A DNA stretch of 64,000 nt from Nitrospinota bacterium (GTDB lineage: Bacteria; Nitrospinota; Nitrospinia; JACRGO01), in NCBI GenBank assembly GCA_016212295.1, contig JACRGO010000181.1, positions 1-64,000 of the forward strand, in the 5' to 3' direction. Positions 8,212-54,773 of the stretch are shown piece by piece (position 1 is the first letter of the stretch; each line of letters opens with the position of its first letter). A model generated the notes under the pieces. That model saw only the letters and a program-made list of their open reading frames with translations. It ran no database searches and had not been told where the DNA came from. Made by a program: the position numbers and the translations under genes.

Positions 8212-8247
8212 AGTTCAATAATTTACAAAAGAAAAAAGGAGATGGCT

Positions 8248-10149
8248 ATGAAAACCCTGAAGGGAAAATTTCTGGCGTTGTTTATTTTCTTCATTGCAGT
8301 GAATATTTTGGCGGGCGTTTTTGTTATAAACACCATTTCCAAGCAGAAGGCCGATGCGGTGGTCATCAATCTGGCCGGAAAACAACGCATGTTGTCCCAG
8401 AAGATGACCAAGGAGGCGTTCGCCATGAGCCAGGGCATAGAGAAGGAAGACGCCTTGAAAGGCACGATGGAACTATTTGAGAGGACCCTGGTAGGGCTTC
8501 TCAACGGAGACAGCGGGCTGGGGCTTCCTCCAACCAGGAATATCCAGGTAGTCGCCCAACTTAATAAGATAACGCCGCTCTGGAAGGACTTCAAGAAAAA
8601 CCTTGATGCAATTAAAGGCTCGGCGAATGAGAGGAGCCAGGCCCTGGCGTTTATCTCCGGGCATGACGCGGAACTAATGGGGAAGATGAACGAGTCGGTT
8701 GAAATGATGGAAAAGGCCGGACTTCCTTCCCAGGTCATCAACCTTGCCGGGAGGCAGAGGATGCTGATACAAAAGCTGTCCAAGGAGTCGTCCCTGCTCT
8801 GCCAGGGAAATGTATCCGAGGAAACCCTTTTAAAGACCTCGGACCTTTTTGGCAAGACCTTGGATGGGCTTATCCAGGGCGACAAGGATTTGGGCCTGGC
8901 CGCCTTGGATGACAAGAATATCCTGGCCAAGCTGAAGGAAACAGAAAAACTCTGGAAGCAATTCCTGGAAAATATCCGGCTGGTCGTCAAGGGCTCCGGG
9001 GAGATCAACCAAGCCCTCTCATACGTCCAGGCCAATAATCTGGCCCTGCTCACGGACAGCAATCTCACAGTTGGAATGTTCGAGGATGAATCAAGGGGCA
9101 AGGTGGAGCGGCTGCAGGCCATCCAGTGGATCGTGGTTCTCATAATGGTCCTTTCGGTCCTCATGGGCTGGGTCTTTATTGTCAGCCCTTTGGTCAAACT
9201 CCTTACCCAGACTGTGCAGGACATGACCGAAGGCGCCACCCAGGTGTCATCGGCGTCGGAACAGGTTTCCCAGTCCTCTCAAAGTCTCGCGGAGGGGGCC
9301 AATGACCAGGCGGCCTCGCTTGAGGAAACCTCCTCTTCCCTCGAGGAAATGGCGGCCATGACCAATAAGACCTCCGAAGGGGCGGCCTTCGCCAATTCCC
9401 TGGCCCAGGAATGCAGACAGGGGGCGGAGGAAGGGATGAAGGCCATGGAGCAGACCATTGCTTCCATGGGAAAAATAAACGATTCCACGGGCCAGATGGG
9501 AAAAATCATCAAGACCATTGAGGAAATCGCCTTCCAGACAAACCTGCTGGCCTTGAACGCCGCTGTTGAAGCGGCCCGCGCCGGCGAAGCGGGCAAGGGG
9601 TTCGCAGTGGTTGCTGAGGAGGTCAGGAACCTGGCCCAGAGAAGCGCCACCGCGGCCAAGGACACCTCCACTCTGATAGCGGAGAGTATTGCCAGGGCGG
9701 AAGAAGGGAAAAAAATCGCGGAAACCGCCGGCTCGTCCCTCACAAAGGTTTTGGAGGAAATCCAGAAGGTCGCGGAGCACTTAAAGCAAATCACCATGTC
9801 CGCGCGGGAGCAATCCGACGGCGTGACGCAAGTCAGCAAGGCCGTCACCGCAATGGACCGCGTGACCCAGCAAAACGCCGCCACTGCGGAGGAGTCCGCG
9901 GCAGCGAGCGAGGAGTTGTCCGCCCAGGCCGCCCATCTCAAGGAAGTGGTCAACAGGATTTTAAATTTGGTTACAGGCGAGGAAGGCTCGCTTGAAGCGG
10001 ACCGGATTCCTTCCGTTGCGAGAAAACCGGTTTTGGCGAGAAAATTTCAGCGTCCCCTTCCCCAGGCGGCGCGAAAAAAGACCAACGGTTTCAAGGCCAT
10101 CCCCCCGAAACGGGAAGTCCGTCCCGACGAAGTTATACCAATGGATTAG
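8248..10149 (+). CDS. Methyl-accepting chemotaxis protein with two PilJ-type sensor repeats
   Basis: A transmembrane segment near the N-terminus is followed by two similar periplasmic units. Each carries the PilJ-type signature ([18 protein letters not shown] and [18 protein letters not shown]). A second transmembrane segment ([18 protein letters not shown]) precedes a cytoplasmic methyl-accepting coiled coil with the conserved hairpin [20 protein letters not shown]. PilJ-type domains sense ligands in twitching and nitrate-related signalling, but the ligand here is unknown. AAGGAG lies 6 bases before the ATG at 8248. An in-frame ATG two codons earlier (8242) is too close to that site. No CheA, CheW or CheY genes are nearby. 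Confidence 0.93.
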
Positions 10150-14946: not shown

Positions 14947-17900
14947 ATGTGGGCCGAAACCATAGAAAAACTGCTTAACGTAAGGCGCGGTGAGTGGAAA
15001 AGCGCCCTACTGATGTTTTTCTATTGCATGAACTCCATTTCCGCCCCCTTCGTTATAGGCAAAATAGTTTCCAGCACCCTCTTTCTTAAACGGGTCGAGC
15101 CTCAATACATCCCTTATACCTACATCGGGGTCGCGGTCTTCACGTCCCTGGCGCTGTGGTTTTACACCAGGATCAGCCATCTGTTCCGGTTGGACCGCCT
15201 GATCATCGGCAGCACTGGCATATTGATAGTTATTACCCTCGCCTTCCGGCTGGCCATAGCCGAGACCGCCGACGCCAGCTCCCTTGTGGTCCTGATAGTG
15301 ATGGGCGGCCTCTATGTTTTCATTCAAATAATGGGTTCCCTTTGCATCATCCAGTTCTGGATATTCGCCAACCATCTGTTCAGCACCAGGGAGGCTAAGC
15401 GGCTTTTCGGATTAATCGGCACTGGAGGGGTCCTTGCCAACATGCTCGGCGGAATGGCTGTCCAATGGTTCGTGGAGGACGGCGGCGTTGAAAATATGCT
15501 CTATCTTGTGGCCGGGAACCTTTTCGCGTGCATCCTATGCGTTTTTTTCCTGGCACGGCCGGGCCATATAAGTTTCATTGAAGAGACGGGCGAACCCAGG
15601 CATCCGGCCAAGGCCGAAAAGGAAACCAGCGCCTCCAAGGGCGTTTTCTCGGATATAGTGAAATCCGATCTCCTGCTTGGAATCGCGGGAATCGTCATTA
15701 TCACAAAGCTGGTAACCAACATCACGGATTATCAGTTTAAAATGGCCATCCGCGCCACTTATGATGAAACGCAATTGGCCTACTTTTTGGGCGGCTTTTA
15801 CATGTGGATAGGCAGCATAGCCAGCGCGATGCAGCTTTTGTTCACCGGACGCCTTTTGCAGAGATTCGGCATTTTATTCGCCGTCATTCTGCTTCCCGCC
15901 TGCCTGCTGGCCGCCTCCTTGGGCATTCTTCTTACCCCCTACCTCTTCTGGCCGGTTATAATGCTCAAGGCGTCCGACAGCATGTTCCGTTACTCCATTT
16001 ATGACTCCACCTTCCAACTGTTCTTTCTTCCAGTGTCGCCCAAGCTCCGGTCAAGGGCCAAGTCGGCCATTGAAGGCATACTAAAACCCTCCTTCACCGG
16101 GATTGCCGGCCTCATGATCATAGGAATGAATTATTTCCTCGATCCAGCCCAGCTCTCGTATCCTGTCTCGATTTTTCTGGTGATCTGGATTTGGCTGATA
16201 GTCCGCAACCATAAATATTATATAAGTTCACTTGCGGACACCCTGCACCGCAGGAAAAGCTTTTCCGGCGGGACCGTCGCCACTGAGGTTGTTGACGATA
16301 CCCAGGCCAACGCCCTGGTCGCGGCCCTGAAGTCGCCGGATGAAAGGTTGGTTTTGGCCATAATGGAAGTTCTGGCGGAATCGCCTCGAATCAACTTTGA
16401 CGAACACGCGGCCGAGCTATTTAGCCACCCAAGCCCAAGGGTCCGCGCCGCCGCCCTGGCGCGACTCGGCAAGAGAGGGGATTCCCGTTATGCCGCCAGG
16501 ATCAGCGGATTTCTTTCCGACGCGGATGAAGCCTGCCGCGCCGAGGCCATAACCGCATATTGCGCCACGGCAAGGGAAAGCGCCATGCCATTGGTGAAGG
16601 AATTCCTGAAGGGCAGGTCGCCGCTTATCAAGAGGGTGGCGCTGGCAGGCATTTTTAAATTTTGCGGCCCTGGGGGGGCATCCTTGGCCCGGGAAGAATT
16701 ACAGGACATGCTCTCCTCTCCCGACCCACTGGTCCGCGAGGCCGGGGCCGAGGTCCTGCAGGAAATCAAATCCGGCCTTTTCATCGAACAGCTACAAAAA
16801 CTGATCAATGATCCTGTTATAGAGGTGCAGACGGCCGCCATCCAGGCGGCGGGTGAGCTGAAAAAACAAATTTTCCTGCCAATCCTGCTCGACAAATTGC
16901 GGAATCCCAAAACTTCCCGCGTCGCGACGGAAGCCATCTGGAAATTCGGGGGAGAAATTTGCGGTGCCTTGTCCGTGATTCTATCCGGCCAAGACAAGGA
17001 CAAAGCCCTTCGTCTCGCCATTCCCAAAATTCTTTCCCGCATAGGCACGCAGGATTCCCTGGACGTTCTTTTCACGAATTTACAAACCAATGACGAGGAC
17101 GTTCGCCTTAATATCCTGAAGGCAGTGAACCGTCTCCTGAAAAACAGCCTGCCCTCCGTCCTCGCGTATCCGAAGGAGCAGTTGGGGCTTCTGCTGCGCA
17201 AGGAAATTGAAAATTATTATACGCCTTTGCTGATAATTAAAGACGTGGGATTGGAAGCCGGCAATACGCTTTTGTATTTTGCCCTTCATGAGCGCATGGA
17301 AGACACAATGGCAAGGATATTCAGGATCATGGGCATTATCCACGGAGAAACCATGGAGACCATTTACATGAATATCTTTTCCAACGCTCCCAAGGCCCGC
17401 GCCAACGCCATTGAACTGCTGGACAACATCATGGGAAGCGGCCCTGAAAAAAAGGCCCTGTTCGCCCTGCTCGAGTCCGCTGATGTTGAGACGAAACTGG
17501 AGGCCGGCAAAACTTTCTTTAACCTGGAGAACAGGAAACCCGCTGAGTGGCTTTCGGAGCTTATGGATGACAAGGACCACGAGTGGGTGAGGGCCTGCGC
17601 CGTTAAACTTGCAGGAGACCTGAAAATGGCGGAGTTGCTGCCTGAAATCATGGACGCCTGCGGATCGAGCCGAGGCATAATCCGGGAAGCCGCGGTGTTC
17701 GCCCTATGGAAAATCGCTGGGCTTGATAAATTGAAAGAGCTGGCGCACAATAGAAAAACTTCCGAGTTGCAAAATGAAATCAATGAATTCATACGCCGTT
17801 CAGAGCACGGAAAAAGCGCCATGATTTCCACCCTGGAAAAAGTCCTCTTCCTGAAAAGCATAGACCTTTTCTCGCAAATTCCCGGCCAGCATTTGACCCA

Positions 17901-18249
17901 GGTGGCCAAGGTGGCGAAGGAAGCCGCGTTTGAAAAGGATGAGACCCTTATGGAGCAAGGTGAAAAAGGAGACTATCTGTACATCATCGTGGAAGGAGAG
18001 GTCAAAATTCTTATCAACGGAAAAGAAGTTGCACGGCGCGGCAAGAAGGAATGCCTGGGTGAGATGAGCATCCTGGATTCAGAGCCCCGCACCGCCACCG
18101 TGGCCGCGGCCACGGATGTCGTCCTCCTTAAGATCGATGGAGAGGATTTCTCCGATCTACTGAGTGAATACGGCGAGCTTGCCAAGGGGATCATCAGGAT
18201 ACTAAAGAAAAGGCTGGTGGAGGCCGAGGCCAGGTCTTCAGCAAAATAG
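14947..18249 (+). CDS. Nucleotide-translocase-like transporter fused to HEAT repeats and a cyclic-nucleotide-binding domain
   Basis: The 1100-aa protein has three parts. Residues about 1-430 form a 12-helix MFS-like/ADP-ATP translocase-type membrane domain (start MWAETIEKLLNVRRGEWKSA). Residues about 450-930 are repeated alpha-helical HEAT-like units (DERLVLAIMEVLAE, SPRVRAAALARLGKRG, DPLVREAGAEVLQEI, DEDVRLNILKAVNRLL). Residues about 965-1090 form a cNMP-binding beta-roll (GEKGDYLYIIVEGEVKILIN, LGEMSILDSEPRTATVAA). In the last, E-x-x-x-x-x-x-P-R-T/A contacts the phosphate in known CNB domains. This suggests transport or mechanical signalling gated by a cyclic nucleotide; the substrate is unknown. 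The gene stands alone. Confidence 0.85.
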   Translation: MWAETIEKLLNVRRGEWKSALLMFFYCMNSISAPFVIGKIVSSTLFLKRVEPQYIPYTYIGVAVFTSLALWFYTRISHLFRLDRLIIGSTGILIVITLAFRLAIAETADASSLVVLIVMGGLYVFIQIMGSLCIIQFWIFANHLFSTREAKRLFGLIGTGGVLANMLGGMAVQWFVEDGGVENMLYLVAGNLFACILCVFFLARPGHISFIEETGEPRHPAKAEKETSASKGVFSDIVKSDLLLGIAGIVIITKLVTNITDYQFKMAIRATYDETQLAYFLGGFYMWIGSIASAMQLLFTGRLLQRFGILFAVILLPACLLAASLGILLTPYLFWPVIMLKASDSMFRYSIYDSTFQLFFLPVSPKLRSRAKSAIEGILKPSFTGIAGLMIIGMNYFLDPAQLSYPVSIFLVIWIWLIVRNHKYYISSLADTLHRRKSFSGGTVATEVVDDTQANALVAALKSPDERLVLAIMEVLAESPRINFDEHAAELFSHPSPRVRAAALARLGKRGDSRYAARISGFLSDADEACRAEAITAYCATARESAMPLVKEFLKGRSPLIKRVALAGIFKFCGPGGASLAREELQDMLSSPDPLVREAGAEVLQEIKSGLFIEQLQKLINDPVIEVQTAAIQAAGELKKQIFLPILLDKLRNPKTSRVATEAIWKFGGEICGALSVILSGQDKDKALRLAIPKILSRIGTQDSLDVLFTNLQTNDEDVRLNILKAVNRLLKNSLPSVLAYPKEQLGLLLRKEIENYYTPLLIIKDVGLEAGNTLLYFALHERMEDTMARIFRIMGIIHGETMETIYMNIFSNAPKARANAIELLDNIMGSGPEKKALFALLESADVETKLEAGKTFFNLENRKPAEWLSELMDDKDHEWVRACAVKLAGDLKMAELLPEIMDACGSSRGIIREAAVFALWKIAGLDKLKELAHNRKTSELQNEINEFIRRSEHGKSAMISTLEKVLFLKSIDLFSQIPGQHLTQVAKVAKEAAFEKDETLMEQGEKGDYLYIIVEGEVKILINGKEVARRGKKECLGEMSILDSEPRTATVAAATDVVLLKIDGEDFSDLLSEYGELAKGIIRILKKRLVEAEARSSAK

Positions 18250-18296: not shown

Positions 18297-20381
18297 TTAC
18301 CTCCCCGTCTCCCGGCCAAGAATCAACTTGGCGGCGTCACTGATTTCCTCGTTTTGAGACCAAAGGACCTCGTCCTTGCCGGATTTCAGGCATTCAAGGG
18401 CCAGCGTTAAGGGGCTTAAGCTGTCGGCGGTCCCGGCCGGGAAGGCGCTCTTAACAGACTCAAGGGCTTTTTCGCACAAAAGAGCTGTTTCCGGTTTTGC
18501 CAGTCCTGAAAAAAATTGGACCGCGGCGGGAAAAACGGCATTAGCGGGAAGGGACCGGATGAACGCCAGCCTCTCTTCAACGAAAAGGCCGGTTTCCTCG
18601 ACTTTCCCTTTCAACGCCATTTTTTTGATGAGATAAAAATACGTCTCGAAGATCAATTGAATCATTGGACCGTTAAGTTGCGCGGTAAGGGATCCCCCTT
18701 GAATGTTCTTTTCAAAACGCAAGAAACAGTCCGCGGCCTCGTCGTATTTCCCTGAATGAAAGCAGGCGTCTCCAAGGTTGGCCAGTGAGGGGGGGGAATC
18801 TTTTTTTTCTTTCAACGCGCGGAGAAAACATTCCTCCGCCTTCTCCATAAGGCCAAGAAAACGGTAATCACAACCCATGTTGTTCAATGCGCCAAAGTCT
18901 TCCGGCTTTTTTTCAAGGCATTTTTTATAACAATCCACCGCCTTTTGGTGCTCCCCTTTGAAACTATAGGCAAAGCCGAGTAGAAAAAGGAGAGAGAACA
19001 TTTGTTCCGGATCGTCACCGGAGTTTTGCAGAAGGTCCTGAATTCTCTTGATCGCCTCATCCCCTTTTTTCTCCTTCAAAAGCTTGTATGCTTCCGATAT
19101 TTTGGAGTTTGAAAAAAAAGAGGGGCCCGGTTCCAGGTAAAAAAGTCCTGGAACCGCGGCCTTTCCGGATTTTACTCCTCCGGCCCCGTTCCCTTCGCCA
19201 TATTTTTCGCGGGAATGCGCGATGTATAAAAAATTTATTATTCCCCTTGAACGGCCTCTCAGGTCTTTCACGTGCTCCATGTGGTAATACGAACAGAATA
19301 ACGGGTCAGCCGCGCCATAAAAGGATTTTTTCGGCTCCAACCGGACCTTTTTGAGAAGCCCTCTGTTGATGAGCCTCTTCAGCAGGACGCTGACCTCCTT
19401 GCCTTCCCAGCCCAGGCGCCGGGCCAATTCCGACGGGGAAACGCGCTGGCTGTCGCGCAACAGGGTATCCAGAAGCTTCCGTTCCTTTGGCGGAGTATTC
19501 TGGATGAGGAACCGGTAATGAGGGGAGAGGATATCCAGCATTCTCTGAAATATCCTGAAAGGGGAAAAGGATGGCGCTATTGCCAAGGCCTGATACATGG
19601 CAAGGGTCAGCCTGGGATTTCCCCTTGTAAAGTGGAAGAGGGTTTTAATAGCCGGGAGATTATTTTGAATTTGGCCGTCCAAGCGCTCCTTGCTGTTTAA
19701 GGCCGCCATTTTCTCCAGGACCGTTAACGCTTCCTCTTCCTTAAAAGGGGCCAGGGAAATAGTGGTAAAAGACCTGGACAAAAGAGGGGAAAATTTTTTG
19801 TTTTCCAGGGTGCAGGGAACGGCGGTCCCTATGATAGACAAGCAGCCACGCGCGGAAAAGAAGGAGGCCATCAACTTGGAGGCAGCCGGATCGTGTAAAA
19901 TGAAATCCAGCAAGTAGTCGAAATCATCAATGCACAAAAGAATTTTCTTGTTGCTTTGGCGGGTGAATTTCTCCAATAATTGGCGGGCCTGCTCCCATTG
20001 GGCCGCAGGGTTTCTGAAGAGTCCTTTCACAATGCGGTATTCCTCCTGGGAAATTCCGCAGCCACCCGGCAAGCCGGCAAGGGGGGCCAGAACTCTTTCC
20101 AGGAAGCAGGAAAAGGATGAAAAAAAACCGGCCCGACCCGGCAGAAAGACCGGTTCCCATTGAGAATTCAGTGGCGTTTTTTCCCTTGCTGCATGGAACG
20201 CCATCAAAAGAAAATGGGTCTTTCCTCCCCCCCACGGCGCCAAAATCAAGCCGTGCCTTGAGGTTTGGGAATCTCCAAGGGAATCCAGAAGGGAGTTAAA
20301 CTCCACGTCCCTGGCCGTGAAAAGGGAGGACAATTCCTCTCGTCCGTGAAATTGAAAATTAAAAAGGGGGGGGGAAATCAT
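18297..20381 (-). CDS. AAA/STAND-type ATPase with winged helix and C-terminal TPR repeats
   Basis: The 694-aa protein opens with an Orc/Cdc6-like NTPase: FHGREELSSLFTARDVEF, Walker A variant APWGGGKTHF (about 48-57), Walker B KKILLCIDDFDYLLDF, sensor LSIIGTAVP. A winged-helix region (ERKLLDTLL, SPSELARRLGWEGKEVSVLL) lies near 310-350. TPR units follow from about 450 (FSLLFLLGFAYSFKGEHQKA, ALNNMGCDYRFLGLMEKAEE, PSLANLGDACFHSGKYDEAA). It is divergent from the roadblock/GTPase genes starting at 20546, with only about 165 bp between start codons, suggesting shared control. Role unknown; a regulator or scaffold of the GTPase module is plausible. Confidence 0.8.
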   Translation of the reverse strand: MISPPLFNFQFHGREELSSLFTARDVEFNSLLDSLGDSQTSRHGLILAPWGGGKTHFLLMAFHAAREKTPLNSQWEPVFLPGRAGFFSSFSCFLERVLAPLAGLPGGCGISQEEYRIVKGLFRNPAAQWEQARQLLEKFTRQSNKKILLCIDDFDYLLDFILHDPAASKLMASFFSARGCLSIIGTAVPCTLENKKFSPLLSRSFTTISLAPFKEEEALTVLEKMAALNSKERLDGQIQNNLPAIKTLFHFTRGNPRLTLAMYQALAIAPSFSPFRIFQRMLDILSPHYRFLIQNTPPKERKLLDTLLRDSQRVSPSELARRLGWEGKEVSVLLKRLINRGLLKKVRLEPKKSFYGAADPLFCSYYHMEHVKDLRGRSRGIINFLYIAHSREKYGEGNGAGGVKSGKAAVPGLFYLEPGPSFFSNSKISEAYKLLKEKKGDEAIKRIQDLLQNSGDDPEQMFSLLFLLGFAYSFKGEHQKAVDCYKKCLEKKPEDFGALNNMGCDYRFLGLMEKAEECFLRALKEKKDSPPSLANLGDACFHSGKYDEAADCFLRFEKNIQGGSLTAQLNGPMIQLIFETYFYLIKKMALKGKVEETGLFVEERLAFIRSLPANAVFPAAVQFFSGLAKPETALLCEKALESVKSAFPAGTADSLSPLTLALECLKSGKDEVLWSQNEEISDAAKLILGRETGR

Positions 20382-20530
20382 TGTCCAATCGCGGGTCTAA
20401 TGTTCCTTTTTAAGCGGATACCGGAAATGAAATTTACATGAATCTAATGGGGTTGTCAAATCCTTCATTTATTTTGATAACCAGCTTATGTTATCATAAA
20501 AAATTAAAAAACTTATATTTTCTTATAAAC

Positions 20531-20548
20531 CAGGAGAAAAATTCCTTG
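20531..20548 (+). promoter_or_regulatory. Ribosome binding site that sets a TTG start
   Basis: CAGGAG (20531-20536) is 9 bases before the TTG at 20546-20548. No such site precedes the ATG at 20438. The sequence between them is A/T-rich leader rather than protein-like. Confidence 0.65.
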
Positions 20549-21460
20549 GCCGAGGAAACCTCAACCAAGCCCAAAGGAAAAGGGAGCCCGGAATCCTACA
20601 TAAAGCTTGCGAAGATTTCCCTTGGACTTCAGGAGTTTCAAATTGCCGCGGCCGCGTGTGAAAAGGGTTTGGCTAAATTCCCCCAAAATCCCGGTCTTCT
20701 TGTGGCTAGGGGAGAAACCCTTGTTCTGGCATATAATTTCGGGAAAAAAGCCGAGCATCTGAAATCAGCCCTGGAGAGCTTTGAATATGCCTTGAAAATA
20801 AATCCGCATAATTACACGGCCAAATTTTTAACCGGCCAGATATATATTCAATTAAAAAAATACGACTTGGCCGCTAAACGATTTTCCTCCATATTGGAAA
20901 TCGACCCCAATGATATCCGGGCCAAGTCCCTTTTGGAAAAGGCCCAAGGCAAAATGGCGCCTCCCAAGGAAAAGCCGAAGGCGGCCCCAGTCAGCGCTGT
21001 AAAGGAAAAAATGGAAGACAAGCCGGAGGAGGAACAAGTCCAGGAAAAAGAAGCGCTTGCCGGTGACCAAAAGGAGGGTATACTGGACATGTCGGATAGC
21101 GATGAATCGGCCAACCACGAATTCCTGATCTCCCGTCTGGGAATCTTTCAGAAGCTGGAAGGAATAAAGAGCATCAATCTGGTGGACAAAAATGGGAATC
21201 TCCTGAAATGCCAAAAGAAGTCCGATCTTGACCCCGAACTTCTTTCTTCCATGGCCGGGAATGTTTACAGATCCACTGTCAGGGTGGTTGATAGATTCCA
21301 CAGCGGGGATTTCGTGTACGGCATGGTGATGTGCCAGAAATCATACATATATATAGTGGCCGCCCGGTGGGCGGTGTTGGTCCTGGAGACCTCCACTGAC
21401 GCCAGCCTGGAGATTCTGGAGAAAAAAATCCATCAATACCTTGGAGAACTGGACCTTTGA
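20546..21460 (+). CDS. TPR protein with C-terminal roadblock/LC7-like domain
   Basis: About 304 aa from the TTG start. Residues 10-140 form tetratricopeptide-type helices (YIKLAKISLGLQEFQIAAAA, ALESFEYALKINPHNYTAKF, YDLAAKRFSSILEIDPND). A charged P/K/E linker follows. The last about 115 residues (FQKLEGIKSINLVDKNGNLL, PELLSSMAGNVYRSTVRVVD) look like a roadblock/LC7 fold, the family that includes MglB and acts as GTPase regulators. The gene overlaps the next by four bases (TTGA), indicating coupled translation. It probably bridges the GTPase to another partner. Confidence 0.78.
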   Translation: MAEETSTKPKGKGSPESYIKLAKISLGLQEFQIAAAACEKGLAKFPQNPGLLVARGETLVLAYNFGKKAEHLKSALESFEYALKINPHNYTAKFLTGQIYIQLKKYDLAAKRFSSILEIDPNDIRAKSLLEKAQGKMAPPKEKPKAAPVSAVKEKMEDKPEEEQVQEKEALAGDQKEGILDMSDSDESANHEFLISRLGIFQKLEGIKSINLVDKNGNLLKCQKKSDLDPELLSSMAGNVYRSTVRVVDRFHSGDFVYGMVMCQKSYIYIVAARWAVLVLETSTDASLEILEKKIHQYLGELDL

Positions 21461-21822
21461 TACAGGAAATAGCGGCTATATTAAAGCAACTTAACGCCAC
21501 GGAAGGAATCAAGGGGAGCCTTATAATCACCCCGGACGGCATGCCGGTCGCGTCTCTTCTGGAAGGGGGCCAGGACATGGACACAGTGGCCGCGATTTCC
21601 TCCTCCATTTATCTTTCCATCACAAAGTCCATGGAAAAACTTGCCATAGGGGATGTGAACCGCTATCTTCTATGCACTGAATTCGCAAGGTTTTTTATAA
21701 TAGGTTTAGGAAAGATGATACTAATAGTTTTAGCGGCCCATAACATACAAATCGCAAAGGTCAATGTGGCGATTTTTCAGGCAGCCAACGCCATCAAGAA
21801 ATCAGGCAGATTGGACGTTTAA
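21457..21822 (+). CDS. Roadblock/LC7-domain protein
   Basis: This 121-aa protein is essentially one roadblock domain (IQEIAAILKQLNATEGIKGS, LIITPDGMPVASLLEGG, DTVAAISSSIYLSITKSMEK). It begins with TTG overlapping the upstream TGA stop and ends two bases before the MglA-like gene. Such proteins dimerise and serve as GAPs or scaffolds for Ras-like GTPases; the partner is most likely the adjacent MglA-like protein. Confidence 0.85.
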   Translation: MIQEIAAILKQLNATEGIKGSLIITPDGMPVASLLEGGQDMDTVAAISSSIYLSITKSMEKLAIGDVNRYLLCTEFARFFIIGLGKMILIVLAAHNIQIAKVNVAIFQAANAIKKSGRLDV

Positions 21823-21824
21823 AC

Positions 21825-22994
21825 ATGGTTCAAATAAACTTCGCCAAAAAAGAAGTCAGTTGCAAAATCGTTTATTACGGACCCGGCCTCAGCGGCAAGA
21901 CAACCAACCTGGAAATCATTTACAAAAAAGCGCCTGATAGCAACAAAGGCAAGATGACCTCCGTGGCCACGGAAGGGGACCGCACGCTGTTCTTTGATTT
22001 TTTGCCGCTGGACATAGGAAAAGTGGGCGGCATGAACACCAAATTTCAGCTATATACCGTCCCTGGGCAGGTCTATTACAATTCCACCAGGAAATTAGTC
22101 CTCCAGGGCGTGGACGGCGTCATCTTCGTGGCCAATTCAGAGAAGGGCAAAATGGATGAAAACATCGAGTCCCTTAAAAACCTTGAGGACAATCTTAAGG
22201 AGCAGGGGATTAACATAAGCGAAATCCCCCTGGTGATTCAATTCAACAAAAGGGACCTCCCGGACGCCACGCCCGTGGCGGAGATGGAGGCTAAACTCAA
22301 TCCTTGGAAGGTCCCTACCTGCGAGGCGTCCGCCTTCAGGGGGGAAGGCGTGTTCCCGACCTTGAAACTTACGGCCGCCATTGTTCTGGATAGACTGAAC
22401 AAAAAATACGCCCCTAAGTCCGCCTCCGACAAGGCCATTGCCGAAGTCAACGGGCATAAGCTCCTCCTGGCCGATTTTGAAAAATTTTGCGTCACTCATT
22501 ACCGCCTGTCCGGGAAAAAGGAGCCTCCCGGCGGCGCAAAATTCTCACGGTCGGAAAAAGAGAATTATCTCAACATATACATTAACAATTTCCTGATAAG
22601 GTTGGCGGCCAAGGAGCAGGGGATCGAGGCTGATGAAAAGGCGGTGGCCGCCCAGATAGAAGGCGCCGCTTCCAAATTCGGCTCAAAGGACAATTTTATA
22701 AAATACCTGAAAGAAAAAAATCTGACGGAAGAAGACTATAAAGAGGAAGCCGTTAACAGAACATTGTCCAATAAACTTTTAGCCGGCATAATACCGGACC
22801 ACCGGGACAGAATCTCCCCTAAGGAAGAACAGCTTAGGGAGGTTTATGAAAAAAACAGGGACAAATTTCCTGGGGCCTTTGACCAGGAGAGGAAAAAGGT
22901 GGAAGCCCAGGCCCTGAAGACGAACAGACTTCAGGTAATGGAAGAGATGTACAAGGAAATCAGGAGCGAGGCCCGGATTAAAACTTATTTATAG
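21825..22994 (+). CDS. MglA-like small GTPase fused to a SurA N-terminal-like domain
   Basis: Residues 1-195 are an MglA-type GTPase: P-loop GPGLSGKTT (19-27), G3 variant TVPGQVYYN (78-86, as in MglA), G4 NKRD (141-144) and G5 EASA (167-170). Residues about 204-389 are unrelated to GTPases. They resemble the helical N-terminal region of SurA-type chaperones: AIAEVNGHKLLLADFEKFCV, then helices with FIKYLKEKNLTEEDYKEEAV and LREVYEKNRDKFPG. MglA proteins usually end near residue 195. There is no signal peptide, so the SurA-like part stays in the cytoplasm. Role: a polarity or motility switch with an added protein-binding arm, inferred. Confidence 0.85.
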   Translation: MVQINFAKKEVSCKIVYYGPGLSGKTTNLEIIYKKAPDSNKGKMTSVATEGDRTLFFDFLPLDIGKVGGMNTKFQLYTVPGQVYYNSTRKLVLQGVDGVIFVANSEKGKMDENIESLKNLEDNLKEQGINISEIPLVIQFNKRDLPDATPVAEMEAKLNPWKVPTCEASAFRGEGVFPTLKLTAAIVLDRLNKKYAPKSASDKAIAEVNGHKLLLADFEKFCVTHYRLSGKKEPPGGAKFSRSEKENYLNIYINNFLIRLAAKEQGIEADEKAVAAQIEGAASKFGSKDNFIKYLKEKNLTEEDYKEEAVNRTLSNKLLAGIIPDHRDRISPKEEQLREVYEKNRDKFPGAFDQERKKVEAQALKTNRLQVMEEMYKEIRSEARIKTYL

Positions 22995-23023
22995 CACCCA
23001 ACCTCAAAACGGGGAGAGAGGCA

Positions 23024-23518
23024 ATGGACGAGTTTAAGGCGTCCCGGTTGATTTTCTACAAGGACGATATAGACCAGATTGAAAAGGTTATCGACGAGTT
23101 CATAAAAAAATCGGATTCCAAGTGCTCCATCCTGATAGACAAGGACGGGCATTTGGTCACCAAGAGAGGCCAGTCCACTCAATTCGATCCGGAGACTTTG
23201 TCCGCGCTAGTGGCCGGAAGTTTCGCCGCCACAAGGGAAATGGCCAAGTTGCTGGGGGAAACGGAATTCACGGTATTGTTCCACAAGGGCCTGAAGGACA
23301 ACATCCATCTTTCCCTCGTGGGGAACAGGGCCATCCTGGCCACCATATTCAACGACCAGACCACCATCGGGATGGTGCAACTGTACCACAAGGAGGCGTC
23401 CGAAAAAATAGAAAAGATATTCGAGATTTCAGCGAAAAAACCGAGGAAGGAAACAAAATTCCACGAGGATTTCGGTAAGGACGCAAAGCAGAAACTGGAC
23501 GAATTCTTTGGAAGTTAA
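23024..23518 (+). CDS. MglB-like roadblock/LC7 protein
   Basis: At 164 aa, with a roadblock core (DQIEKVIDEFIKKSDSKCSI, LIDKDGHLVTKRGQ, FDPETLSALVAGSFAATREM), it matches the length and features of MglB, the GAP partner of MglA. The lysine-rich C-terminal tail (AKKPRKETKFHEDFGKDA) is extra. GGAGAGAGG lies just upstream of the ATG. This is the last gene of the module; the gap to the next gene holds a repeat. Confidence 0.86.
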   Translation: MDEFKASRLIFYKDDIDQIEKVIDEFIKKSDSKCSILIDKDGHLVTKRGQSTQFDPETLSALVAGSFAATREMAKLLGETEFTVLFHKGLKDNIHLSLVGNRAILATIFNDQTTIGMVQLYHKEASEKIEKIFEISAKKPRKETKFHEDFGKDAKQKLDEFFGS

Positions 23519-48413: not shown

Positions 48414-51383
48414 GTGAAAAAAGAGGCTTTGGGGGCGAGGATACCCCTCTCCACATACAGGCTTCAGTTCAACCGGCTCTTCGGATTCTCCGACGCAAGA
48501 AAGAGAATCTCCTACCTCCATGACCTCGGCATCAGCGACATTTACTCGTCCCCCTGCCAGAAGGCCAGGGAGGGAAGCCTCCACTGCTACGATATCGTCG
48601 ACCACAACGCCCTGAACCCCGACATGGGCAGTGAAAAAGACTACCACGGCATGGTCGGGGAACTGCGGAGGCGCGGGATGGGGCAAATCCTCGATATTGT
48701 CCCCAACCATATGTGCATCGCGAGCAGGGAGAATGCGTGGTGGATGGACGTCCTGGAAAACGGCCCAAGCTCCGTGTATTCAGGCCTCTTTGACATAAAC
48801 TGGAACCCTGTCAAGGAGGAATTGAAAAATAAGGTGCTCCTCCCCATCCTGGGCGACCAGTATGGAAAGGTTCTGGAAAACCAGGAACTGCGACTAAGTT
48901 TCGAGGAAGGCTCCTTCTTCCTCCACTATTTTGAACACAAGCTGCCCATAAGGCCCCAGACATACAATTTCGTCCTTGAGTATGCGTTCGACGGGATCAA
49001 AGGGCTTCTCCCGGAGGGTGACGCGCGGATGGAAGAGCTTTTGAGCATCATGACCGCCATAAACCACCTGCCTCCCTACACTGAAACCGTCCCTGAAAAT
49101 GTCAAGGAGAGGCGCCGTGAAAAAGAGATCATAAAAAGGCGCCTGGGGGAAGTCTACATGAAATACTCCGAGGTCAAGGAATTCATCGACGGGAATGTCC
49201 TGGCCTTCAACGGAGTGAAGGGAGAGCCCAGAAGCTTTGACCTCCTGGACAGGCTGATAAGGGAGCAGGTCTACAGGCCTTCCTTCTGGAGGGTCGCCAC
49301 GGATGAGATAAACTACCGGAGGTTCTTTGACATAAGCGAGCTTGCAGCCATCAGGATGGAAGACCCGCCCGTCTTCCGGGAGACCCATAGGCTGATCCTC
49401 AGGCTCATAAGGGAGGGAGCGGTCACCGGCCTCAGGGTCGACCACCCCGACGGTCTTTACAATCCAGGGGAGTATATGCTGGCCCTCCTGAAGGCATGCT
49501 GCCTGCAAGCAAGGCTGGCCGAAGCCGGGGGAGAAGATGAAGAAGGCGCCATGAGGGAATGCGACCGGCTTTTTTCTTCCGATCCCCGGGCAAAGCCCTT
49601 CTATATCATGGGAGAAAAAATACTCGTCAAGGGGGAAAAAGTACCTGAAGACTGGCCTATCTTCAGCACGACGGGATACGCCTTCTTGAATTCCCTGAAC
49701 GGAGTATTCATTGATGCGTCCAATGCAAGGGCATTTGAAGGCATTTACTCCAGGTTTACCGGCATCAAGAGGGATTTCGCGGACATAGTATACGAAAAAA
49801 AGAGGCTTGTCATGAAGGTCGCCATGTCCAGTGAGATCAATGCCCTTGCCCACATCCTCAACAGGATATCGGAAGACGACCGGCACACGCGGGATTTCAC
49901 GCTGAACAGCCTGAGGGCCGCGATCATGGAGGTCATTGCCTTCTTTCCCGTGTATAGAACATACATAACCGCGAATGGGATCAACGACAGGGACAAGAGA
50001 TATATTGATGCGGCGGTATCAAGGGCCAAGCGGAGGAACCCGGCCATCAGCGAATCCACATTCAACTTCCTGAAGGACGTCCTTGAGCTCAATTATCCGG
50101 CCTATATCGAAGAGGACAAGCGAGGCGGCTGGCTCGATTTTACCATGAGGTTCCAACAGATCACAGGTCCGGTAATGGCAAAAGGGGTGGAAGACACCGC
50201 TTTTTACGTGTACAACCGTTTCGTCTCGCTGAATGAGGTGGGCGGGAGCCCCGAAAGATTCGGGACTTCCCTTGACGCCTTTCACGGACAGAACATAGAG
50301 AGAAACAAGCTTTGGCCCCATGCCCTCGTGGCCACTTCCACCCACGACACCAAAAGGAGCGAGGATGTGAGGGCCAGGCTGAACGTCCTTTCCGAGATGC
50401 CCCGCGAGTGGCGGTTACACGTCGTTTACTGGGGGAGGATAAATAAAAAGAACAAGGCCGCCGTTGACGGCGGCCTGGCCGCGCCGGACCGGAACGAGGA
50501 ATATCTTTTTTATCAAACCCTTGTTGGAGCGTGGCCGCTTGGCGCAATGGATGCCGCATCGCGTAAGGAGTTCACAAGGAGGATCAGGGAATATATGCTG
50601 AAGGCCATCCGTGAGGCGAAGGTAAACTCCAGTTGGATAAATCCGAACACGGCTTACGAAGACGCAGTAACCGCCTTCATTGAGAAAACCTTGACGCCTT
50701 CGAGGGAGAACCGTTTCCTCATGGACATGGAGGCGTTTCAAAATAATATATCATGGTACGGAAAATTCAATTCATTGTCCCAGACCCTCCTCAAAATACT
50801 CTCTCCCGGGGTCCCGGACTTTTATCAGGGGAACGAGTTGTTCGACTTCAGCTTGGTGGACCCGGACAACAGGAGGCTGGTGGACTATGGCCTGAGAATC
50901 AGTATGCTGGAGGAATTAAAAAAAAGGGAAAAGGAAATACTGGCGGGTGAGCTGATGTCCGGCATGGGCGGCGATCCCGGCAGGATAAAACTTTATCTCA
51001 CCTGGAAGGCGCTGAACTGGCGCAAGGAAAACCGGGAACTTTTCGAAAACGGGGAATACATCCCCCTCGACGCGGACGGGGAAAGGAAAGACCATATCTG
51101 CGCCTTTTCAAGAAGACTGGAGGGGAGAGAGGCGATTGTCGCGGTCCCGAGGTTCCTCGCCAGGCTCGCCCCTCCAGGCAGGCCGCCGCTCGGAGAAGAG
51201 GCGTGGGGCGACTCTTTCGTTATCGTCGAGGCCGGAAGTTACAGGAACATATTCACAGGCGAGGTGGTCGAGGCCGTGGAACGGGAAGAACGCCCGGCGC
51301 TTCCTGCTTCCGCATTATTCAAGGACCTGCCGTTCGCCATGATGGAAAAAATCGCCGCGAAAGCAGGAATCCAGCGGTTTTAA
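48414..51383 (+). CDS. treY: Malto-oligosyltrehalose synthase
   Basis: TreY rearranges the reducing-end glucose of maltodextrins to a trehalose unit. At 989 aa it is full length: IPLSTYRLQFNRLFGFSDAR, DIVDHNALNPDMG, DIVPNHMCIASRENAWWMDV, VTGLRVDHPDGLYNPGEYML (catalytic Asp), FYIMGEKILVKGEKVPEDW (catalytic Glu) and TSTHDTKRSEDVRARL. The GTG start has AAAGGAGG inside the treZ 3' end. Without intact TreZ, release of free trehalose by this route is not possible from this locus. Confidence 0.96.
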   Translation: MKKEALGARIPLSTYRLQFNRLFGFSDARKRISYLHDLGISDIYSSPCQKAREGSLHCYDIVDHNALNPDMGSEKDYHGMVGELRRRGMGQILDIVPNHMCIASRENAWWMDVLENGPSSVYSGLFDINWNPVKEELKNKVLLPILGDQYGKVLENQELRLSFEEGSFFLHYFEHKLPIRPQTYNFVLEYAFDGIKGLLPEGDARMEELLSIMTAINHLPPYTETVPENVKERRREKEIIKRRLGEVYMKYSEVKEFIDGNVLAFNGVKGEPRSFDLLDRLIREQVYRPSFWRVATDEINYRRFFDISELAAIRMEDPPVFRETHRLILRLIREGAVTGLRVDHPDGLYNPGEYMLALLKACCLQARLAEAGGEDEEGAMRECDRLFSSDPRAKPFYIMGEKILVKGEKVPEDWPIFSTTGYAFLNSLNGVFIDASNARAFEGIYSRFTGIKRDFADIVYEKKRLVMKVAMSSEINALAHILNRISEDDRHTRDFTLNSLRAAIMEVIAFFPVYRTYITANGINDRDKRYIDAAVSRAKRRNPAISESTFNFLKDVLELNYPAYIEEDKRGGWLDFTMRFQQITGPVMAKGVEDTAFYVYNRFVSLNEVGGSPERFGTSLDAFHGQNIERNKLWPHALVATSTHDTKRSEDVRARLNVLSEMPREWRLHVVYWGRINKKNKAAVDGGLAAPDRNEEYLFYQTLVGAWPLGAMDAASRKEFTRRIREYMLKAIREAKVNSSWINPNTAYEDAVTAFIEKTLTPSRENRFLMDMEAFQNNISWYGKFNSLSQTLLKILSPGVPDFYQGNELFDFSLVDPDNRRLVDYGLRISMLEELKKREKEILAGELMSGMGGDPGRIKLYLTWKALNWRKENRELFENGEYIPLDADGERKDHICAFSRRLEGREAIVAVPRFLARLAPPGRPPLGEEAWGDSFVIVEAGSYRNIFTGEVVEAVEREERPALPASALFKDLPFAMMEKIAAKAGIQRF

Positions 51384-51436
51384 TTCTTCTTTCAGAAAAA
51401 CAATATGAACCACGAATAAATCACCGCCATACCGCC

Positions 51437-52915
51437 ATGAATAAAAATTCCAAAAAACTAATCACCGCCGATGATCCAGGCTGGTATAAGGATGCCGTTA
51501 TTTACCAGCTTCATATCAGGTCCTTTTTTGACAGCAACAATAACGGCATCGGAGATATCAACGGAGTCACCGCCAAGCTTGGTTATCTGGAGAGCCTGGG
51601 CGTCACCGCCGTCTGGCTCCTTCCCTTTTATCCGTCGCCGCTTAAGGATGACGGGTATGATATCGCCGATTATTACGGAATCCACCCGGATTACGGGACC
51701 TTGAATGATTTCAAGAGATTTTTGCGGGAGGCCCATCTGCGGGGGATGAAGGTCATCACCGAGCTTGTCCTGAACCACACCTCGGACCGGCATGAATGGT
51801 TTCAAAAATCGCGCAACGCCCCCAAGGGAAGCCCCTGGCGAGACTATTATGTCTGGAGCGACACGCCGGACAAGTATAATGGCGTGCGCATCATCTTCCA
51901 GGATTTCGAGACCTCCAACTGGAGCTGGGACCCGGTTGCGAAGGCATATTTCTGGCACAGGTTTTATTCGCATCAACCGGACCTGAATTTTGATAATCCG
52001 CAAGTGCGCAAGGAAATGTTCAAGGTCATTGATTACTGGATGGAGATGGGGGTGGACGGCATGAGGCTTGACGCCGTGCCGTATCTCTTGGAGCGTGACG
52101 GCACCAATTGCGAGAACCTGCCCGAGACCTATGATTTTCTCCGGCAGCTCAGGTCGCATCTCGACAAAAAATTCAAGAACCGCATGCTCCTGGCCGAGGC
52201 GAACCAGTGGCCCGAGGACGCAGTTGCCTATTTCGGGAAGGGGGACATCTGCCACATGGCCTTCAATTTCCCGCTCATGCCCCGCATGTTCATGGCCCTG
52301 CAGATGGAGGACTGGTTTCCCATCGTTGACATTTATGAGCAGATCCCGCCCATACCGGAGGAGTGCCAATGGGCTATCTTTCTGCGGAACCATGATGAGT
52401 TGACGCTTGAGATGGTCACCGACGAGGAGCGCGACTACATGTACAAGGTCTATGCCCACGACCATACGGCCAGAATCAATTTAGGAATACGCCGGAGGCT
52501 TGCGCCTCTTTTGAACAACAGCCGGCGGAGGATCGAGATACTTAGCCTGCTTCTCTTTTCCCTGCCCGGCACTCCCGTGATTTATTATGGAGATGAAATC
52601 GGCATGGGGGACAATTACTACCTGGGGGACCGCAACGGGGTAAGGACGCCAATGCAGTGGACCGGCGACCGGAACGCCGGGTTCTCCACCGCGAACCCCC
52701 AGAAAATTTTCCTGCCGGTCATAATAGACCCGGATTATCATTATCACTCCATAAACACGGAAAACCAGGAAAAAAGCCTCTCGTCATTGCTATGGTGGAT
52801 CAGGCGCATCATCGCCATGCGCAAACAACACAAGGCGTTCAGCCGCGGCGGCATCAAATTCCTGCATTGCGAAAACCAGGCCGTTTTGGCCTTTGTCCGC
52901 CGCTTTCGAGGATGA
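51437..52915 (+). pseudogene. treS: Trehalose synthase TreS catalytic part, upstream of a frameshift
   Basis: The GH13 maltose/trehalose isomerase domain is intact: WYKDAVIYQLHIRSFFDSNN, GVDGMRLDAVPYLLERDG (nucleophile Asp), MLLAEANQWPEDAVAYFG (Glu) and FLRNHDELTLEMVTDEERD (Asp). The frame continues to VLAFVRRFRG and stops at 52913-52915. The expected continuation EDEHILVIVNLSRF lies in the next frame. The extra base is in CGCTTTCGAGG, about position 52907. Removing it gives one 1111-aa TreS-maltokinase, the usual fusion length. It could be real or a sequencing error. Confidence 0.88.
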
Positions 52916-54773
52916 GCATATTCTCGTAATAGTCAATCTGTCACGCTTTCCGCAGGCCGTGGAGCTGGACCTGGCCGAGTACGCCGGCTGGTATCCAGAG
53001 GAAATGTTCGGCAAAAACCGTTTCCCGGCGATAAAGGCACAGCCCTATGTCTTTACCGCCGGGTCACACTCCTACTTCTGGTTTTTACTGCACCAGGAAG
53101 AATCGCATTCAACCATGTCCGCTTCAAGCAAGACGCCTGAACTGGAGGTCCGGAACGGCTGGGGAGATATTTTAAAGGGCCGTTTGCTGGACAGGCTTGA
53201 AAAGGAAATTCTTCCATCCTACCTTGCCCGGCAACGATGGTTTGTGCCAAAGGGCAAAATTTCAGGCGTCACGGTTCTTGACGTACTGGACAAGGCAAAA
53301 CGAAAACTGGATTTTCAATTTTTGCTGTTGGAGGTAAAGCATACATCCGGGCTGCAGGATATTTATTTCCTGCCCGTGGCCCTTTACTCCATTGAGCGCC
53401 TTGATGCCATGATGAAGGAATGCCCTGAAGCGGTCATCGCTGTCATACGCGGAAAGACGGCTGGAGTGCTGATGGATGGATGCCACGCGGAAGGCGTCCG
53501 GCGGGAATTATTTTCCTGCGTGCTGAATAAGCGGTCCCTTCGCGCCTTGAAGGGGACCTTCGAAGGCTCCCTCGCAGGAAAATATCTTTCGAGAAACAAT
53601 AAAAATATGCTGGCCGGATCGAGGGCCACGCTTGTAAGGGTCAACCGGCACAACACCGCCCTTTCCCTGGACGACAAACATTATCTCACGCTTTTCCGCA
53701 TGTGCGATTTCGGGACTAATCCAAACGCGGAAGTGGTTTCCTTTCTTTCCCGGAGGACGATGTTCAATAACTTCGCCCCGCTCGTCGGGTTGCTGGAATA
53801 CCGGAGCAACGGGGAATCCATTATCCTGGGCATGGCGCAGGAATTTGTCGCGTCCACCGGAAATGCCTGGACATATACCCTGGGCGCGCTGAAGGGATAT
53901 TTTGAGATGGTCCTTCTGAAAAAAAACAAGCTCCAAGCGCATATCCGCGAAGTGCTGCCGTTTCCGTTGGAACGTAGGATAGGGGAGGTCCCGGATTGGT
54001 TCGCGAAGTTGATCGGCGGAGGTTTTCGCGGCGCGGTGGAAAGGATGGGGGTTTGCACCGCGAGAATGCATCGCGCCCTGGCGGAGGAAATTTCCGATCC
54101 CGCTTTCATGCCCGAACCGTTCACGCTCCTGTTCCAGCGGTCCATGCGCCAGTCTCTGCAAAACCGGGCGAAACGGGTTTTCATGGCCCTGAAGAGGAGG
54201 GTGAAGCATGTACCCCCGCCGGCGCGCGCCAGGCTTGAAGGGGTCATTAAGATGGAGAAGAGCGTCCTGGAGGCTTACAGCCAGGTGTCACGGGAAAAGT
54301 TGAACTTGTATAAGACGCGGATTCATGGCGATTACAACCTCACTCAGCTTCTGTGCACCGGCCAGGACTTCACCGTGATCGGGTTCGGAGGAAGGCCGTC
54401 CAGGACCCAGAGCGAACGCCGTCTCAAGCAGTCGCCCATCCGTGACGTGGCCGGCCTTATCCGCTCCTTTCACTATGCGGCATACACGGCGCTGAGGAAT
54501 TATGCCCATCTCTTTCCGCATGGGGCCGAAGAGGAAGGATTTTCTCCATGGGCGGACGTATGGTATAAACTCATCGTGGAAATTTTTCTTAAATCCTATC
54601 TCGACGAAGTGGAGAGCCGGCCGGTCCTTGCCCCGCGCCAGGAACTGAAACTAATGGCGAAGGTGATGATCCTGGATGAGGCGATGGGCGAGTTGGACAG
54701 GGAAACGGAGTTGAATTCCGATAATATCGCCATACCCATTCTCGCCATTGAGCATGTTATCAATGGCGGATAG
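52893..54773 (+). pseudogene. treS: TreS C-terminal domain plus maltokinase, downstream of the frameshift
   Basis: In the +2 frame: TreS beta domain (DEHILVIVNLSRFPQAVELD, HSYFWFLL), then a maltokinase (LPSYLARQRWFVPKGK, TRIHGDYNLTQLLCTG). The usual metal-binding motif D-F-E-G-E-P reads G-F-G-G-R-P (54381-54398), followed by the normal RTQSERRLKQSPIRDVAG. The metal-binding Asp is missing. HGDY is kept, so kinase activity is doubtful. The open frame begins with a TTG with no ribosome binding site. Confidence 0.85.

Follow-up and report, generated by a model that had tools for sequence, protein, structure and literature searches.

A conserved four-gene MglA/MglB-type module with a SurA-like tail on its GTPase, and a candidate output in type IV pili

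The stretch of DNA analysed here (the window; 64,000 nucleotides) contains a tight group of genes for a MglA-type GTPase, roadblock/LC7 proteins and TPR proteins, and it raises the question of which of these genes belong to one machine, what has been fused to the GTPase, and what such a machine would control. A preliminary description had listed five open reading frames, three of them for roadblock/LC7 proteins, with a TTGA stop/start overlap (21457-21460) and a 2-base gap ahead of mglA (21823-21824). All five frames lie where they had been placed, both junctions are as described, and Robl_LC7 matches were obtained with Pfam in the TPR-roadblock, rob2 and MglB-like genes.

Genes of the locus

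The features of the locus, with the evidence for each in brackets, are as follows.

18297-20381, minus strand: AAA/winged-helix/TPR gene (Pfam: weak AAA_16/ATPase_2 matches below the cut-off, a MarR_2 winged helix barely above the cut-off, and TPRs)
20491-20519, plus strand: sigma-70-like promoter match upstream of the module, TTATCA-17-TATATT (consensus match only)
20532-20536, plus strand: putative ribosome-binding site AGGAG for the TPR-roadblock gene (sequence)
20546-21460, plus strand: TPR-roadblock protein, 304 aa, start codon TTG (Pfam TPRs and Robl_LC7)
21457-21822, plus strand: rob2, a single-domain roadblock protein (Pfam Robl_LC7, E 9e-9)
21825-22994, plus strand: MglA-SurA fusion, 389 aa (Pfam Ras/Arf-type GTPase and SurA_N_3)
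21825-22403, plus strand: MglA GTPase domain, residues 1-193 of the fusion (PDB MglA 3t12, E 5e-70)
22419-22991, plus strand: SurA-type core without a parvulin/PPIase domain, residues 199-389 of the fusion (Pfam, AlphaFold2, structure comparison)
23024-23518, plus strand: MglB-like roadblock protein, 164 aa (Robl_LC7; PDB MglB 6h5b, E 1e-30)

The TPR-roadblock gene had been given an ATG start at 20438; the TTG at 20546 is more likely, because AGGAG precedes it and the relatives in G002 and in the Nitrospinota locus L042 begin at the same place. The closest PDB chains to rob2 are Roadblock/LC7 proteins rather than MglB. The product of the last gene matches the NCBIfam MglB model at E 2e-26, a value that is nevertheless under the model's cut-off, and this protein is a putative GTPase-activating protein (GAP) for MglA.

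The GTPase domain carries the motifs of a Group 1 MglA, namely R53 (the intrinsic arginine finger, G2), TVPGQ at residues 78-82 (G3) and NKRD at 141-144 (G4), all of which occupy invariant columns across seven fusions. It also possesses the coupled MglB gene that marks Group 1, located downstream of mglA at a spacing of 29 bases. The usual size of a Group 1 protein, a single small domain of less than 240 aa, is exceeded by the 389-aa fusion with its folded tail; in a 2014 survey of prokaryotic small GTPases (PMC4316618), this size is usual and not defining, with 449 of the 488 surveyed MglA proteins below 240 aa and 39 at 240 aa or longer. The survey also reports that Group 1 MglA is sometimes coupled to two MglB genes and sometimes has PATAN neighbours; the passages searched make no mention of TPR-roadblock partners or MglA tails. 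The actinobacterial conservon (CvnA-D) is likewise a small four-gene GTPase/roadblock operon, but its GTPase belongs to Group 2 and the present one to Group 1. The neighbours here are roadblock/TPR proteins, with neither a CvnA histidine kinase nor CvnC among the window's four genes, which are thus not a conservon.

Elsewhere in the window, a PilJ-type methyl-accepting chemotaxis protein (8242-10149, plus strand; PilJ E 5e-35, MCPsignal E 4e-46) is followed by genes for a phosphonate-type binding protein and an ABC permease. In a single 1100-aa protein (14947-18249, plus strand), HEAT repeats and a cyclic-nucleotide-binding domain are combined with an ATP/ADP-translocase-like membrane domain. 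At 51203-54773 (plus strand), a trehalose-synthase-like GH13 frame stops at 52915, and its C-terminal domain and maltokinase cap start at 52893 in a different frame, possibly through a frameshift within a TreS-maltokinase fusion. Finally, on contig C12 of the same genome (locus L128), a PilB-type ATPase adjoins CheA and a CheD-response regulator fusion, and this cluster is possibly a pilus chemosensory system.

The tail of the GTPase

The preliminary description had spoken of an MglA-like fusion and had left the partner unnamed; the fusion is real, and the partner is a SurA-type core. In Pfam searches, SurA_N_3 was matched over residues 199-389 with E 6e-8 in the whole protein and 6e-9 for the tail alone, and the same family matches all seven tails tested. 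A profile of the tails gave two weak alignments with the SurA-like protein 3rgc (3rgc residues 16-132 and 208-248), and the gap between them is the place where such proteins hold their isomerase domain. Correspondingly, no PPIase domain was matched by Pfam in the fusion or in the tails, so the parvulin domain of SurA and PrsA is missing.

Structure prediction points the same way. The tail modelled alone with AlphaFold2 reached a mean pLDDT of 91.9 and a pTM of 0.83, and by Foldseek and VIA-align it resembles the SurA core 8pzv_F (E 3.7e-4; TM 0.60/0.65; Z 13.2 over 171 residues) and the Leptospira SurA-like protein LIC12922 (3nrk; Z 14.2), while unrelated rows in the comparison gave Z of about 3 or less, except one at 5.4. 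In sequence, the tail and SurA are about 12% identical. The tail thus shares the core fold of the SurA / PEB4-like / LIC12922 chaperones (Z 10.9-14.2) and the SurA-type core of the SurA/PrsA proteins, but differs from them in its lack of a PPIase domain and signal peptide and in its cytoplasmic position, fused behind a GTPase, in place of periplasmic export. A transmembrane stretch was absent from the measured Nitrospinota SurA tails, and none is evident in the window's sequence. In the full-length model (pTM 0.49), the packing of the tail on the GTPase is not defined. As modelled, the tail is a SurA-type core minus its isomerase domain and is best called SurA-like in fold and not a SurA, because it has no isomerase domain, has no signal peptide and sits behind a GTPase.

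Distribution of the fusion and the module

Among the 77 genomes of the window's own phylum, the MglA-SurA fusion occurs in the window genome, its sister genome and three genomes of family f7. It therefore spans two families of this class, and it is full-length in all five genomes except G068, where it is recovered as overlapping pieces. Another genome of the phylum, G070, has a plain mglB-mglA pair instead. A scan of a named genome collection, which may omit the window's own lineage, yielded three Nitrospinota fusion loci together with numerous MglA proteins from other phyla; 17 of 24 Nitrospinota genomes carry the fusion, with 52-69% identity to the L041 protein. All of the fusion loci examined are ordered TPR-roadblock, roadblock, MglA-SurA and MglB, the order being split over two contigs in G068.

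The four-gene order extends well beyond the fusion. In a comparison of the 80 loci nearest to the query, which is a biased sample, it was present in Nitrospinota (3/3), Zixibacteriota (13/13) and Sumerlaeota (2/2), and in 15 of 27 Planctomycetota loci, several of the remainder ending at contig edges. Four relatives from the window's class have it too. By contrast, none of the 25 loci of canonical, tail-less MglA has this order, and MglB lies upstream in 21 of them. Fibrobacter MglA possesses a tail, and the order was seen in none of its ten loci. The conserved synteny that the preliminary description had proposed as a check is thus found for the four rightward genes, in the same order in several phyla. 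Its larger GTPase machine survives in part: MglA and the additional roadblock proteins, one of which has TPRs, do make up a conserved module, to which the AAA/TPR gene does not belong as an arm.

What varies between lineages is the tail. Most Planctomycetota tails consist of a low-complexity linker followed by a C-terminal transmembrane helix, and nearly all Zixibacteriota tails of a linker and a basic amphipathic end, for example KKRGFFKRLFGIK. The Sumerlaeota tail is a domain without a Pfam match (DUF3108, considered as a candidate, was not matched), and the SurA core is the tail type of Nitrospinota and the window's class. Because the tail type differs between lineages in this way, the sequences suggest that the tail may decide where the switch docks. 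In the GTPase-domain tree, a single change separates MglA with a tail from MglA without one (SH-aLRT 92, not starred). The same tree is consistent with the SurA tails having arisen once, but at a support of 0, and this reading was not adopted.

Other signalling genes were encountered in these loci. A second, divergent MglA-like GTPase (L035 7306-7983, minus strand) lies within a histidine kinase/response regulator cluster in G067. In two Nitrospinota (L040 3315-4685 and L042 3083-4471, minus strand), a Ser/Thr kinase fused to a cyclic-nucleotide-binding region is divergent from the module.

Two doubts about the locus can be weighed on this distribution. The preliminary description had made the AAA/TPR ATPase an arm of the machine, subject to a conserved link with the GTPase genes. 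A five-gene machine with this AAA/winged-helix/TPR ATPase as working partner would account for its adjacent, divergent position in the window, with about 165 bp between the start codons and TPRs on both sides of the divergent start region. However, the gene was found in only 2 of the 77 phylum genomes, which share a genus; its copy in the sister genome sits on contig C211, among unrelated genes and away from the module. Nor is the gene beside the module in f7, Nitrospinota, Zixibacteriota or Planctomycetota. The conserved link is therefore lacking, the AAA/TPR gene is a neighbour and not a conserved part of the module, and the five-gene machine is very improbable. That the fusion itself arose by chance or as an assembly artefact has next to no probability, given its recurrence in five genomes of the class and in the 17 Nitrospinota genomes.

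Output of the module and its meaning

The preliminary description had found no pilus genes in the window and had left the output unknown. The output genes do lie outside the window, yet they are present elsewhere in the genome, and the output can be narrowed to the type IV pilus. Specifically, the window genome encodes type IVa pilus machinery (pilB, pilT, pilM-N-O and pilQ), and the PilJ-type chemotaxis protein noted above lies in the window itself. PilT was above the cut-off in all 33 module genomes tested, a weak indication because PilT is common (48 of the 77 own-phylum genomes). Direct linkage to pilus motor genes is seen in Zixibacteriota only, where pilB, pilT or pilC follows mglB directly in 12 of 13 loci, plus loosely in G070, where mglB-mglA lies a short way upstream of a PilB/GspE ATPase.

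The module has PATAN (DUF4388) genes as neighbours in 13/13 Zixibacteriota, 14/27 Planctomycetota, 2/2 Sumerlaeota and 2/3 Nitrospinota loci. In Nitrospinota and f7, mglB is followed by genes for a TPR membrane protein and a PATAN protein, the latter carrying a T2SSG-like pseudopilin domain as well as a transmembrane helix, and the window genome has the same pair on contig C157. This pair was found in 4 of the 77 phylum genomes, all four bearing the fusion, and is unlinked to the module in G000 and G002; in the fifth fusion genome, which is 58% complete, part of the TPR-membrane gene is preserved at the end of a contig. The co-occurrence of pair and fusion has a hypergeometric probability of 3.7e-6, which ignores kinship and rests on two families, the family-level chance being 0.03. 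PATAN domains have been shown to bind the extension motor PilB in Synechocystis (PMC10519157, PMC9090330), and work on the MglA/SgmX pilus pathway of Myxococcus included PATAN proteins among its candidates (PMC11580455). MglA has also been shown to act on type IV pili via TPR proteins, which bind it, in Myxococcus and Bdellovibrio (PMC11580455, PMC3983030). The motor-gene linkage, the PATAN and TPR neighbours, the literature on PATAN-PilB and TPR-MglA binding, and the genome's own pilus genes together point, with moderate confidence, to a type IV pilus output.

We therefore regard it as somewhat probable that the four genes are a compact MglA/MglB-type switch controlling the type IV pilus machine, with a tail that most likely sets the docking place. 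MglA-GTP would be the active state and the MglB-like protein its GAP, and rob2 and the TPR-roadblock protein would act as partners that regulate or read MglA. Since PATAN domains are known to bind PilB in cyanobacteria, the C157 pair, that is, the TPR membrane protein and the PATAN-transmembrane-pseudopilin protein, would be the likely link to the pilus motor. In most relatives, the tail of MglA is a membrane anchor or membrane-binding end; here and in Nitrospinota, the cytoplasmic SurA-type core would most likely place the switch by binding a protein, possibly an unfolded client, and not the membrane.

It is tempting to suggest that the SurA-type tail is a working chaperone, the state of the GTPase opening or closing a client-binding cradle for cytoplasmic pilus or secretion components; the protein would then be a GTP-switched chaperone and not a switch with an adapter. 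In favour, the fold is that of the client-binding core of SurA, relatives of the fold without a PPIase domain include MPN555 (1zxj, Z 5.7) and trigger factor (1w26, Z 6.1), and in cyanobacteria active pilus motors are contacted by a DnaK chaperone system (PMC9239167). The similarity is one of fold, at the sequence identity to SurA given above, and the relatives hold a membrane anchor or an unrelated domain at the tail position, which indicates a targeting role; a working chaperone is thus possible but rather unlikely. About equally unlikely is the bolder proposal of a nucleotide-controlled, fused SurA-type chaperone driving assembly or disassembly of the pilus base, within a module whose tails are interchangeable across phyla. 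Outputs other than the type IV pilus, namely type II secretion, envelope stress via the neighbouring RseP, or general polarity, are unlikely. The PATAN domain fused to a T2SSG-like pseudopilin domain and a type II secretion locus in the window genome speak for them, as does rseP, which follows mglB in both genomes of the window's genus. However, pilB-pilT-pilC come after the module in Zixibacteriota, and rseP is downstream of mglB in this genus only (upstream in Nitrospinota L040), a restriction on which RseP was also rejected as a module member.

The switch read in this way, as a docked controller of pili, has close parallels in known systems. Myxococcus xanthus MglA/MglB with SgmX and PATAN (PMC11580455, PMC4316618) shares the Group 1 motifs, an MglB-type GAP (here putative), a TPR partner, and a genome that also encodes PATAN proteins and type IV pili. 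The present module differs in being four genes in one operon with mglB behind mglA, and in its TPR-roadblock protein, second roadblock protein and 190-residue folded tail on MglA. In Bdellovibrio, MglA is paired with a TPR protein, Bd2492, and type IV pili are affected (PMC3983030), but there is no MglB, and Bd2492, which is described as a TPR protein with no roadblock domain mentioned, is encoded apart from mglA. No description of the MglA-SurA fusion or of the four-gene module was found in the mainly open-licence literature searched, and the fusion with a SurA-type core is thus a seemingly undescribed variant of the known MglA/MglB switch.

In Myxococcus, where the components are dispersed across the genome, the way in which MglA reaches the pilus motor and acts on it is still an open question. 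The present module brings MglA together with its likely GAP, a second roadblock protein and a TPR partner in one short operon, in several phyla, and provides a list for co-purification. Finally, the swap of tails between lineages allows a direct test of whether a bacterial Ras-like switch is placed by the membrane or by a protein to which a chaperone-type domain binds.
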